DNA of 38,053 nt from positions 1-38,053 of the IMG/VR virus record IMGVR_UViG_3300012920_000099; one strand, written 5' to 3'. The notes under the pieces were generated by a model, which saw only the letters and a list, made by a program, of their open reading frames with translations, searched no databases and had not been told where the DNA came from. Both the position numbers and the translations under genes were made by a program. Each line of letters begins with the position of its first letter. Position 1 is the first letter of the stretch. Shown here piece by piece: positions 27,872 to 38,053 of this stretch. The DNA comes from a virus.

Positions 27872-28771
27872 CTAGCTTTCTTGAGCTAACTTAGCAAAAT
27901 AACTGAGCGTATCTTCTTCCTCTCTTTCCGAGGACGCCTCAGATACGGGTTCAGCCGTCGCTATATCAGGAGCAGGTGAAGTTGGTGCAGTTTCTACAAA
28001 GGAACTTTCCATTGCATCACCACCATCAATACCTAATACTCTATTTAACTTAGCTTTAAGCTCATCATAAGATTTGTAGTTCTCTGGTTTAGTGAACTCT
28101 GATAGAGAATATAGTTTTTCATATACCTCTGTCAGTCTTGTTTCATCAGAATCAAATAATGCAGAGGGTTTAGCAAACTCTGATTTATCATAGTTAACCC
28201 AGCCTTCTACTTTTCTGATTTTAATTTTAAAGTCGGCACCTTCCCAAAAATCAAATGGATTTACTGGTTCTTCATCTTGGAATTGTGGTTGCATAACATC
28301 CATAATTTTATCGAAGATTTTTTTACCAAATTGATATAGGAATACCTTTCCTTCATTTTGTGGATTGTCAGGGTCAGATATAACAAGAACATTACTTACA
28401 TAATGTAGTCTTCTTTTTCTATCCCTAGCAGTTGCTTTATCCTCATCTCTACCAGTATTCCATAGTACAGAGTTAGACTCTGATACAGGGTCAGGTTGTC
28501 CAATGGACGTTAATGAGTTTTCTATATACCATAGACCAGTAGGACCCTTGAACCCATGGTCCCAATACCTTACCCAAGGAAGGTCCTCACCTTCTTTTGC
28601 TGGCAAGAATCGAACCACGGCATAACCGTTTCCTGCTTTATCTCTAGTAGGTTTCCAAAAACGATCATCTACATAAGATGTTGTTTCTGCTTTTGTGGAT
28701 ACAGCTTCTGCTGCTTTTACGAGTTGGTCGATTGACGAGCCTCGCATACTCTTTAGATTTTCTAATGACAT
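27872..28771 (-). CDS. 32: Single-stranded DNA-binding protein gp32 lacking the zinc site, 299 aa
   Basis: gp32 coats ssDNA in replication, recombination and repair. The N-terminal basic helix for cooperativity (MSLENLKSMRGSSIDQLVKA) and core 'FWKPTRDKAGNGYAVVRFLP', 'DLPWVRYWDHGFKGPTGLWY', 'NVLVISDPDNPQNEGKVFLY' and 'EPVNPFDFWEGADFKIKI' are present. The acidic C-terminal tail (EREEEDTLSYFAKLAQES) is the partner-binding end. T4 gp32 holds zinc with one His and three Cys. This protein has no cysteine at all, so the zinc finger is lost. It lies beside gp59 and gp33 as in T4. CGGAG precedes the ATG and a host-type promoter lies at 28837-28865. Confidence 0.95.
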   Translation of the reverse strand: MSLENLKSMRGSSIDQLVKAAEAVSTKAETTSYVDDRFWKPTRDKAGNGYAVVRFLPAKEGEDLPWVRYWDHGFKGPTGLWYIENSLTSIGQPDPVSESNSVLWNTGRDEDKATARDRKRRLHYVSNVLVISDPDNPQNEGKVFLYQFGKKIFDKIMDVMQPQFQDEEPVNPFDFWEGADFKIKIRKVEGWVNYDKSEFAKPSALFDSDETRLTEVYEKLYSLSEFTKPENYKSYDELKAKLNRVLGIDGGDAMESSFVETAPTSPAPDIATAEPVSEASSEREEEDTLSYFAKLAQES

Positions 28772-35316: not shown

Positions 35317-35763
35317 TTAGAAGTCTCCTTCAGCAACCTGGAAGCAGTTGATTTTATTTCTTCTCCACATATCAACAACGGAGTTCCTATCATCAAATAC
35401 TAAATCTGGTTTCCATCCAGCATCTAATAATGAATCTAATACATCTTGTTTAAATTCAACATCAGACCTGAAGTCATCATCTTCTCTTAAAAATAAATGA
35501 GCAAACTCTACACCAGCAGTTTTTAACTGTAATTCAGTTACTTCTCTGTGTCTTTCGTTTCTTGCTGAAACTATTACTATTTCTACGCCTGCTTTTTTTA
35601 ATGCTATAGCTATATCTCTAACAGGCCAATTAGGAGTATCACCTTGCATGATTTTTGGGTCTAAGAAAGTTTTCCAATCTTTTTTCTGAGAACCATCAAC
35701 GAATTTCCTTCTATGGGTTATATCCATCAAGGTTCCATCTACGTCAAATATTACTCTATCCAT
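35317..35763 (-). CDS. HAD-family phosphatase, polynucleotide 3'-phosphatase-like, 148 aa
   Basis: Motif I is 'VIFDVDGTLMDITHRRKF' with nucleophile D7 and acid/base D9. Motif II is S66 in VSARNE, motif III K105, and motif IV D124-D125 in LVFDDRN. The arrangement resembles the phosphatase half of T4 polynucleotide kinase (IFDVDGTL...SGR...DDR), but there is no kinase P-loop half. It would hydrolyse phosphate from a nucleic-acid 3' end or a nucleotide; the substrate is uncertain. The cytoplasmic protein is first in a short operon under the promoter at 35791-35819, with the leader ATTGATAAGGAGTT. Confidence 0.82.
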   Translation of the reverse strand: MDRVIFDVDGTLMDITHRRKFVDGSQKKDWKTFLDPKIMQGDTPNWPVRDIAIALKKAGVEIVIVSARNERHREVTELQLKTAGVEFAHLFLREDDDFRSDVEFKQDVLDSLLDAGWKPDLVFDDRNSVVDMWRRNKINCFQVAEGDF

Positions 35764-35827: not shown

Positions 35828-36184
35828 TTAAGTTTTTTCACAATTTTTTTTAGCACTATTAGTTACATACAAATTATTCATTATAATCATAAGCATAAAA
35901 GCATTTATCTCATTCATATCTTTTTGAGTAAGACTTTGTCTATTTAAGTCAGCTTTGATAGCTGGAGCAAGTATGGCTGATTTCGTAATCAACATTTTTT
36001 GTACTGATGGGTCTTTACCAAACAAAGGATTTGTCTCTGTTACACAATCATATTTGAGGCCACGGTGTGTAGTGTATATATCTAATATTTGTAGACCAAC
36101 GAATGTGGCCCAGGAAATTTGTTCAGGATAGTGGTGTATATATAGTGACAGACTCTGACTTTCCTTTAACCTTGATTCTATCAA
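35828..36184 (-). CDS. Conserved marine phage hypothetical, start uncertain, about 118 aa
   Basis: The family-like part is 'EQISWATFVGLQILDIYTTH', 'RGLKYDCVTETNPLFGKDPS' and 'MLITKSAILAPAIKA', a pattern I have seen in marine phages (DUF5658-like, tentative). The frame has no ATG, GTG or TTG between the cyclase stop (36123) and the conserved part. The start must therefore overlap the cyclase: TTG 36184 is the nearest, ATG 36253 the next. The longer reading from 36523 produces a signal-peptide-like stretch in antiphase with the cyclase catalytic domain and is probably chance. A +1 frameshift from the cyclase is an alternative. Function unknown. Confidence 0.55.
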   Translation of the reverse strand: MIESRLKESQSLSLYIHHYPEQISWATFVGLQILDIYTTHRGLKYDCVTETNPLFGKDPSVQKMLITKSAILAPAIKADLNRQSLTQKDMNEINAFMLMIIMNNLYVTNSAKKNCEKT

Positions 36185-37958
36185 CTTCAGAGAATGCTCT
36201 CTCCGTACAGCTTCTATATGTTTCTGGTCCCAGCAACACTCGAATCCTATCATAATTTCTAGTTTGGCTTTCGAGTCTAGCACCGAGGTTGACGGCATCT
36301 CCAATGACGGAATAATCAAATCGTTCTTCAGAGCCCATGTTTCCAACGATGCATGTGCCTGTGTTGATACCAATACCAATATCAATCCTAGGTAGACCTT
36401 TATCTTCAAGTTCTTGTATAAGTTCATCTGCTGCCTCACATATTTCAATGGATGTTTGTACAGCTTTATCAGCATGGTCTTTACAAGGCAATGGAGCGTT
36501 CCAAAATGCCATGATACAATCACCCATAAATTTATCTATAGTACCACCATTCTTTAAAATAATTTTAGTCATGGTGTCCAAATAATTATTTATAAGGTTT
36601 ACTAAACCTTCAGGGTCGTCATTATTTTTATAGTGTTCTGATATAGGAGTGAAACCACATATATCCATAAACATAAATGTCATCTCTTTTCTTTCACCAC
36701 CTAGCTTCATTTTGTCTGGGTCTTTTACTAATATGTTAACCATATCTGGAGATAAGTATGTAGAGAACTGACCTTTTATCTGTTGTCTAAGTTTATATTG
36801 TTTATAAAAATTATTGAATGCGCTTGAGAGAAAGGAAAGTATATATAATATTAGTGAATAACTGAGGTCGAGGAGTATATAAAATTTGGTCCAGGCATAA
36901 TAAGCAGCTCCGGCTGATACGAAACAGAAGGCGACAAAGCCGATACCTGAAACCCAAACAGGTAAACGATACACCATTAACACAAGAACAAGAGCAAGAA
37001 TTCCACTTACAAGAATTTCTAAAGGAGTTGCGTAAAGAGGCCGAGAGATGGGATTATCAGAAATAATAGTTTGTAAAGCATTTGCTTGTAAGTGATGAGG
37101 ATAATATATACCACCAGGAGTTGATATTTGTTGTGATAGTCCTTTTCCTGATACACCAATGATTACTGTTCTTCCACCAAGATTAGGCATCTTATATCTA
37201 ACATAATCATACTCTATAAATTTAGTATTATGTTTTAACCATATACTTCCATCTGGGTCAGTAGGTATATTAAAAGGTCTTAGTACTATACTTTCTATAC
37301 CAGCTTCGTTTGTTTTTATTGTATAGCTTTTTTTATCTTGCATTACTCTAACAGTTTCAAGAGCTAATGATGGATAAACTTCTCCATTTATTTGTGATAG
37401 TAATGGTATCCTTCTAGTAATATTATCTACTTCCGGTGCAGCATTTACTAATCCAATACCCCATGCTTTATCTTCTAGTATATCAATATTAGTAATTAAT
37501 CCTTTATACTTATATAAAAAATCTAAGGGTTCACCAGGTCCAAATGTAGCATAACCTACATAAGGAGCCTTCTTATCTCTACCAAATGCATCTGCATCCT
37601 GAGATAATATAATACCATTTTCTTCCATCCATTCTGCAAATCTTTGGTCTCCTCCCCACCTATCTTCCTCAGGAAACATTATTGTAAATATAATTAAACC
37701 AGCATTTGCCTTTCTCAGAGTATCTATCATCTGAGCATATTCTTGGCGAGGCCATGGGAACTGACCGTATAATCCTAGAGACTTTTCTCCAATGTCGACT
37801 ATTACTATATCATCTGACTTTTGTTCAGGTATAGTTTTGATGTATAGGTCAAATGTGTTTAAACGTATTTGCTCTATTAAATGAGGGTCTGATATTCGGA
37901 CTATTGTAAGTAAAACAATAAGCGCAATACTTGTCCAAATAGAAGTAATATATTTCAT
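36123..37958 (-). CDS. CHASE2-three-TM class III adenylate cyclase, 611 aa
   Basis: A membrane receptor that should convert ATP to cAMP. Residues 5-22 are an N-terminal anchor. About 30-308 form an extracytoplasmic CHASE2 sensor ('DIVIVDIGEKSLGLYGQFPW' then PRQEYAQMIDTLRKA, and GRTVIIGVSGKG). Three helices follow at about 312-332, 334-355 and 361-382. The cyclase catalytic domain spans about 425-611. All class III residues are present: metal aspartates D432 (FMDICGFT) and D480 (DKFMGD), adenine lysine K476 with S550 (FDYSVIGDAVN) in the place of the usual Thr/Asp, and transition-state N557 and R561. The start overlaps the preceding stop (TAATG). Active on sequence; a lysogenic or host origin cannot be excluded, but its base use matches the neighbours. 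Confidence 0.93.
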   Translation of the reverse strand: MKYITSIWTSIALIVLLTIVRISDPHLIEQIRLNTFDLYIKTIPEQKSDDIVIVDIGEKSLGLYGQFPWPRQEYAQMIDTLRKANAGLIIFTIMFPEEDRWGGDQRFAEWMEENGIILSQDADAFGRDKKAPYVGYATFGPGEPLDFLYKYKGLITNIDILEDKAWGIGLVNAAPEVDNITRRIPLLSQINGEVYPSLALETVRVMQDKKSYTIKTNEAGIESIVLRPFNIPTDPDGSIWLKHNTKFIEYDYVRYKMPNLGGRTVIIGVSGKGLSQQISTPGGIYYPHHLQANALQTIISDNPISRPLYATPLEILVSGILALVLVLMVYRLPVWVSGIGFVAFCFVSAGAAYYAWTKFYILLDLSYSLILYILSFLSSAFNNFYKQYKLRQQIKGQFSTYLSPDMVNILVKDPDKMKLGGERKEMTFMFMDICGFTPISEHYKNNDDPEGLVNLINNYLDTMTKIILKNGGTIDKFMGDCIMAFWNAPLPCKDHADKAVQTSIEICEAADELIQELEDKGLPRIDIGIGINTGTCIVGNMGSEERFDYSVIGDAVNLGARLESQTRNYDRIRVLLGPETYRSCTERAFSEVDRIKVKGKSESVTIYTPLS

Positions 37959-38053
37959 TAACTAAATTTTTTTTGGATATATTTAAATATGGCGTAGATT
38001 GATAAGCCGTAAAAGGCTAAGACACCCATAGGTATAGAGATATATGCTAACTC
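37958..38053 (-). CDS. C-terminal end of a membrane protein (partial)
   Basis: Thirty-one codons enter from the right edge: ELAYISIPMGVLAFYGLSIY, then AIFKYIQKKFS and TAA. A single transmembrane helix with a basic end. The stop overlaps the cyclase ATG (TAATG), so this gene is in the same operon. Identity unknown. Confidence 0.55.
   Translation of the reverse strand, partial: ELAYISIPMGVLAFYGLSIYAIFKYIQKKFS

Follow-up and report, generated by a model that had tools for sequence, protein, structure and literature searches.

A CHASE2-type adenylate cyclase, predicted to be active, as candidate signalling output of a curli-type export module in T4-like phages

The question raised by this locus is why a T4-like phage would carry a complete membrane-bound sensory adenylate cyclase. 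The window, i.e. the whole 38,053-nt stretch analyzed here (IMG/VR record IMGVR_UViG_3300012920_000099), encodes gp32, gp6 and further baseplate genes, which bears out the T4-like setting given in a preliminary description of this DNA; its bases 1-25000 had no close megablast match to any sequenced phage, and neither tRNA nor Rfam RNA was found in the window. The answer we favor, and hold on balance to be probable, is that this membrane adenylate cyclase, predicted to be active, is the signalling output of a curli-type outer-membrane export module made by the phage. Features and coordinates are listed in Table 1.

Table 1. Features of the window and of two bacterial loci used for comparison (window positions unless a locus is named).
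Feature	Coordinates	Strand	Details	Basis
Membrane CHASE2 class III adenylate cyclase, 611 aa	36123..37958	-	TM helix 7-23; periplasmic CHASE2 ~26-300; TM helices 310-331, 334-359, 365-398; catalytic ~420-609	ORF, Pfam, AlphaFold2, Foldseek
Catalytic domain (PF00211)	36144..36689	-	D432, K476, D480, S550, N557, R561	Pfam, alignment, Foldseek
Overprinted DUF5658-like gene, 199 aa	35828..36427	-	ATG at 36427; +1 frame relative to the cyclase; 305-nt overlap with the cyclase 3' end	
GAGG Shine-Dalgarno-like element	36434..36437	-	Upstream of the overprinted ATG; present in most homologues	
PNKP-like HAD phosphatase	35317..35763	-	Next gene downstream of the cyclase/overprinted-gene end; recurs in relatives	
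gp32 ssDNA-binding protein	27872..28771	-	Downstream of the cyclase; anchors the T4-like neighbourhood	
Small acidic single-TM protein gene, 3' end	37954..38053	-	Upstream of the cyclase; cut by the contig end	
Alphaproteobacterial FecR-CHASE2-cyclase loci	L099:3317-10166; L108:4992-10232		FecR heading a giant VCBS/RTX adhesin, or after a Slam-like TPR protein	

Pfam identifies CHASE2 (PF05226) over residues 14-326 (E=6e-41) and Guanylate_cyc (PF00211) over residues 424-605 (E=2e-21) of the cyclase and, together with the AlphaFold2 model (mean pLDDT 84), places an extracytoplasmic CHASE2 between an N-terminal TM helix and later TM helices, as in a CHASE2 receptor. The model consists of an N-terminal helix, a mixed alpha/beta CHASE2 part, three helices and a catalytic fold; the TM helices thus number one plus three, against the total of three in the preliminary description. 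Foldseek returned CyaB (3r5g) as the best whole-domain match of the catalytic domain (TMt 0.84-0.85), with target-normalized TM of about 0.8 against the CyaB and CyaC crystal structures. The active site is intact as first described, every named residue being at its position, and the metal residues (D432, D480), the pair for the base (K476/S550) and the transition-state residues (N557, R561) are invariant in 74 of 74 aligned phage homologues; the phage ORF has class III cyclase residues and cyclase fold alike. A Lys/Ser pair in class III cyclases points to ATP as substrate, and this suggests that ATP is the substrate here too. Between close phage relatives, dN/dS of the CHASE2 part is ~0.03-0.16, i.e. 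strong purifying selection. Judged from its sequence, the phage cyclase is probably active.

Since class III homology is shared, PADLOC models of the Pycsar cyclase PycC also match the catalytic domain (best E=1e-24), which raises the possibility of a Pycsar-like counter-defence or inter-phage weapon, whose cyclic nucleotide would trigger or jam an immune effector. We regard this as very improbable: the best solved-structure matches are adenylate and guanylate cyclases, the gene is paired with secretion genes, and no cNMP-binding effector, as would lie beside the cyclase in Pycsar, was found in the phage records searched. The defence-silencing role proposed at first found no support.

The TAATG junction to an upstream membrane gene is present as described, the stop codon of the small TM gene overlapping the cyclase start. 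In locus L002, the closest relative (85%), that gene is complete and encodes an acidic TM protein of 85 aa, the final residues of which are identical to those at the edge of the window; the window therefore stops inside an operon. A scan of viral contigs for the cyclase yielded 223 confirmed stretches, the best 80 of the 223 having 49-85% identity. At least 80 viral contigs carry a homologue and gp32 lies downstream of it in about 30, so the recurrence on the gp32 side anticipated earlier is real. Full-length homologues also occur in isolates, namely Pelagibacter phage HTVC008M (45%) and the Methylophilales phages Melnitz (36%).

The order shared by the phage loci is two small TM proteins, CsgF, CsgG, a curlin-like protein, FecR, a second curlin-like protein, (a small TM protein) and the cyclase, the bracketed member being the 85-aa protein in L002. 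Profile searches found the full operon in 31/31 loci with ~5.3 kb or more of upstream DNA, a count that leaves out loci (e.g. L064, L068) in which additional genes make the cluster so long that it runs past the contig end. The cyclase closes this csg/FecR operon, in agreement with its original placement in a phage operon; from these relatives we infer that the phage of the window has its csg genes beyond the contig end. In HTVC008M and Melnitz the cyclase is likewise last, after csgF, csgG, a curlin-like gene, FecR and a second repeat gene. HTVC008M (cyclase AGE60353.1) resembles the window in being T4-like and in operon order, but its cluster is found on the opposite flank of gp32, adjoining the tail tape-measure gene. 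The Melnitz operon (PMC9004378) has the same gene set, including FecR and cyclase, although its cyclase is C-terminally extended to 683 aa.

A cyclase within the curli operon of phages of SAR11 and OM43 bacteria is already known. A curli cluster was described in pelagimyophages without mention of a cyclase (PMC7029224); a text search of the report on the curli operon of Methylophilales phage Melnitz returned no mention of a cyclase either (PMC9004378); a pelagiphage T8SS/curli cluster with FecR and adenylate cyclase, arranged as here, was reported and assigned an alphaproteobacterial origin (PMC9599517). Because it is the last gene of this published phage cluster with FecR, the cyclase is not an isolated host regulator. 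CHASE2 was found mentioned in none of the three papers. What is new here is the CHASE2 domain of the phage cyclase, together with the observation, set out below, that bacteria have FecR-CHASE2-cyclase pairs next to outer-membrane barrels or adhesins.

The genes that open the operon deserve a separate remark. Two tandem proteins of ~90-100 aa, with TM and coiled-coil-like segments, always precede csgF (L002:375-945 and the equivalent in 30 other loci). PMC9599517 names a preceding gene histidine kinase; this label was set aside for the genes seen here, since ~90-100 aa is too short and no kinase domain was found in the small L002 proteins, their identity with the gene of that paper not being certain.

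What CHASE2 may sense can be approached through its bacterial relatives. Compared with 80 bacterial homologues, mostly from Alphaproteobacteria, the phage cyclase has 33-38% identity, and in the resulting tree the 20 sampled phage cyclases form a single group (SH-aLRT 100). An ORF for FecR lies directly upstream of the cyclase in 24 of the 80 bacterial loci (gap of 209 nt or less). In Thalassospira the order is Slam-like TPR protein, FecR, cyclase; in Bradyrhizobium FecR heads a 1,517-aa VCBS/RTX adhesin that the cyclase follows. CsgF, CsgG and curlin had no match among the neighbours of the bacterial homologues. These alphaproteobacterial cyclases, S. meliloti CyaD1/CyaD2/CyaK included, share the architecture of the phage protein and often sit directly downstream of a FecR gene, but they are longer at the C-terminus and have adhesin or barrel-type partners. 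In S. meliloti the outer-membrane barrel NsrA mediates activation of the CHASE2 cyclases (PMC13001267), and the Burkholderia BiofilmReg operon likewise sets a FecR protein beside a CHASE2 sensor, although its output is a histidine kinase (PMC5192318).

Taken with the NsrA and Burkholderia parallels, the bacterial FecR-cyclase pairs suggest that the phage CHASE2 reads envelope machinery, here the state of the CsgG/FecR/curlin apparatus. On these grounds, the phage may have joined a pre-existing FecR-CHASE2-cyclase signalling pair to a CsgG/CsgF pore. More generally, the recurrence of FecR and CHASE2 beside outer-membrane barrels and adhesins gives a concrete hypothesis for CHASE2 sensing.

Under the export-module reading, the phage would make a CsgG/CsgF outer-membrane pore, curlin-like repeat proteins and a secreted FecR-domain protein; the periplasmic CHASE2 would read the state of this machinery, be it pore or fibre assembled or FecR bound; the cytoplasmic domain would then make cAMP during infection, and the signal might be used late, for fibre production or the timing of lysis. 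If the enzyme is active, it offers a way to test what the puzzling curli cluster of these phages does. No clumping was seen in OM43 cultures upon Melnitz infection (PMC9004378), so the function of the fibre is uncertain.

A lysis role for the CsgGF pore has been proposed in that same paper, and a variant has to be weighed in which the pore, together with the paired small TM proteins, disturbs the envelope late in infection and the cyclase reports or triggers the event. Putative late-promoter-like TATAAATA sites lie 18 nt or less from the first ORF of the operon in 12/31 loci (at -18 in L002, for example) and ~300 nt upstream in 12 more. The small TM proteins before csgF resemble holin family phrog_4898, a similarity that is weak and non-significant (E 0.03-0.05). 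No direct lysis gene was identified, and we consider this variant unlikely.

Who would receive the signal is the next question. The preliminary description had suggested redirection of CRP-controlled metabolism, that is, a phage that raises cAMP to reprogram host metabolism or defence independently of the curli genes. The intact active site is compatible with this, and cNMP-binding proteins occur in 141 of 190 other sampled alphaproteobacteria. The cyclase is, however, fixed inside the csg/FecR operon. Moreover, the cNMP-binding domain PF00027 was found in none of 10 phage records (HTVC008M, Melnitz, the window and seven others, some of them partial), i.e. no phage-encoded receptor was found in the records searched. 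For the best-documented host group, 60 genomes were drawn from the family of genomes with an exact match to what we take to be the SAR11 FISH-probe site. In this probable SAR11 family, 58 of 60 genomes are devoid of PF00027 and two have it; the one CRP/FNR-type match read (in genome G435) has an FNR-like Cys-rich N-terminus. With 58/60 genomes devoid of PF00027, CRP redirection is unlikely in SAR11-type hosts, a CRP-type protein is unlikely to be the cAMP receptor there, and to the CRP explanation as a whole we assign a low probability, about that given to lysis timing.

The same 60 genomes bear on a further possibility, namely that the cyclase is a decaying passenger gene or comes from an assembly chimera with host DNA, as the contig end just upstream of it could suggest. 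Against this, 58 of the 60 have no class III cyclase and the other two hold theirs in the phage gene order, with CsgG; the active site is invariant and dN/dS is low. Dozens of independently assembled viral contigs, and isolates too, repeat the neighbourhood, by which a chimera is ruled out. We thus give this explanation almost no weight. As to the two cyclase-bearing genomes, the curli-cyclase operon is located in G404:C1 and G440:C11 (loci L167-L170) and probably represents phage contigs sorted into the host bin, or infected cells.

Returning to the cyclase as output of the export module, a signalling role needs some undescribed target, given that a cAMP receptor domain is absent from the phage records searched and from 58/60 genomes of the probable SAR11 family. 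If the enzyme is active, a widespread marine phage group brings cAMP signalling into cells apparently devoid of class III cyclase and CRP-type receptor. A more far-reaching version, which we put forward tentatively and with less than even confidence, is that the virus gives a cAMP synthase to hosts with no known cAMP receptor, as a readout of a viral outer-membrane secretion pore, the cAMP working through an undescribed target, while the same DNA encodes a secreted DUF5658-like protein with its signal peptide overprinted on the conserved GIGINTG motif of the cyclase.

This predicted second protein would be read from the same strand, in the +1 frame, starting within the 3' part of the cyclase gene. 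The only start codons of the DUF5658-like gene lie inside the cyclase, and the predicted N-terminus, MNLYKNLKIKVYLGLILVLVSTQAHA, is signal-peptide-like and falls over GIGINTG; beyond the overlap the protein continues into a non-overlapping helical domain. In its AlphaFold2 model, a low-confidence linker joins an N-terminal helix to a helical C-terminal part that is modelled with confidence. DUF5658 (PF18902) scores 20.6-24.4 bits, below the Pfam gathering cut-off of 25.2, and the protein is therefore named DUF5658-like only. A query that began one codon after the ATG had no match in the annotated phage collection, and the overlapping protein appears not to have been described previously. Stand-alone DUF5658-like homologues elsewhere in the operon have a signal-peptide-like start of their own.

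Evidence for coding in this frame comes from comparison of cyclases with and without the gene. Leading up to the cyclase stop, the +1 frame stays open over 308 nt or more in 40 homologues with the gene downstream, and over no more than 101 nt in 36 without it. Stops in this frame number 0 in carriers and 3-13 (mean 9) in non-carriers across the final 300 nt, while the other frame has 6-15 stops in carriers and non-carriers alike. When synonymous codons were shuffled in eight genes, an open frame of 300 nt arose no more than once in 3,000 shuffles. Within the overlap, synonymous divergence drops by 0.20 in carriers (column permutation p=5e-5), with no fall in non-carriers (p=0.21), and the start region of the overprinted gene is conserved among homologues. 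In several clades (window/L002, L029/L049, L036/L046) non-carriers are interspersed with carriers, and HTVC008M, the +1 frame of which is closed, has no such gene. An alternative frame free of stops and a damping of synonymous change, both expected of overlapping genes, make a same-strand gene running across the catalytic domain well supported by the alignments, and such a gene accounts for why synonymous sites vary less toward the 3' end of the cyclase gene. Among the overlap-group cyclases, synonymous divergence dips a second time at codons 351-375 (window ~36834-36908), in the TM region.
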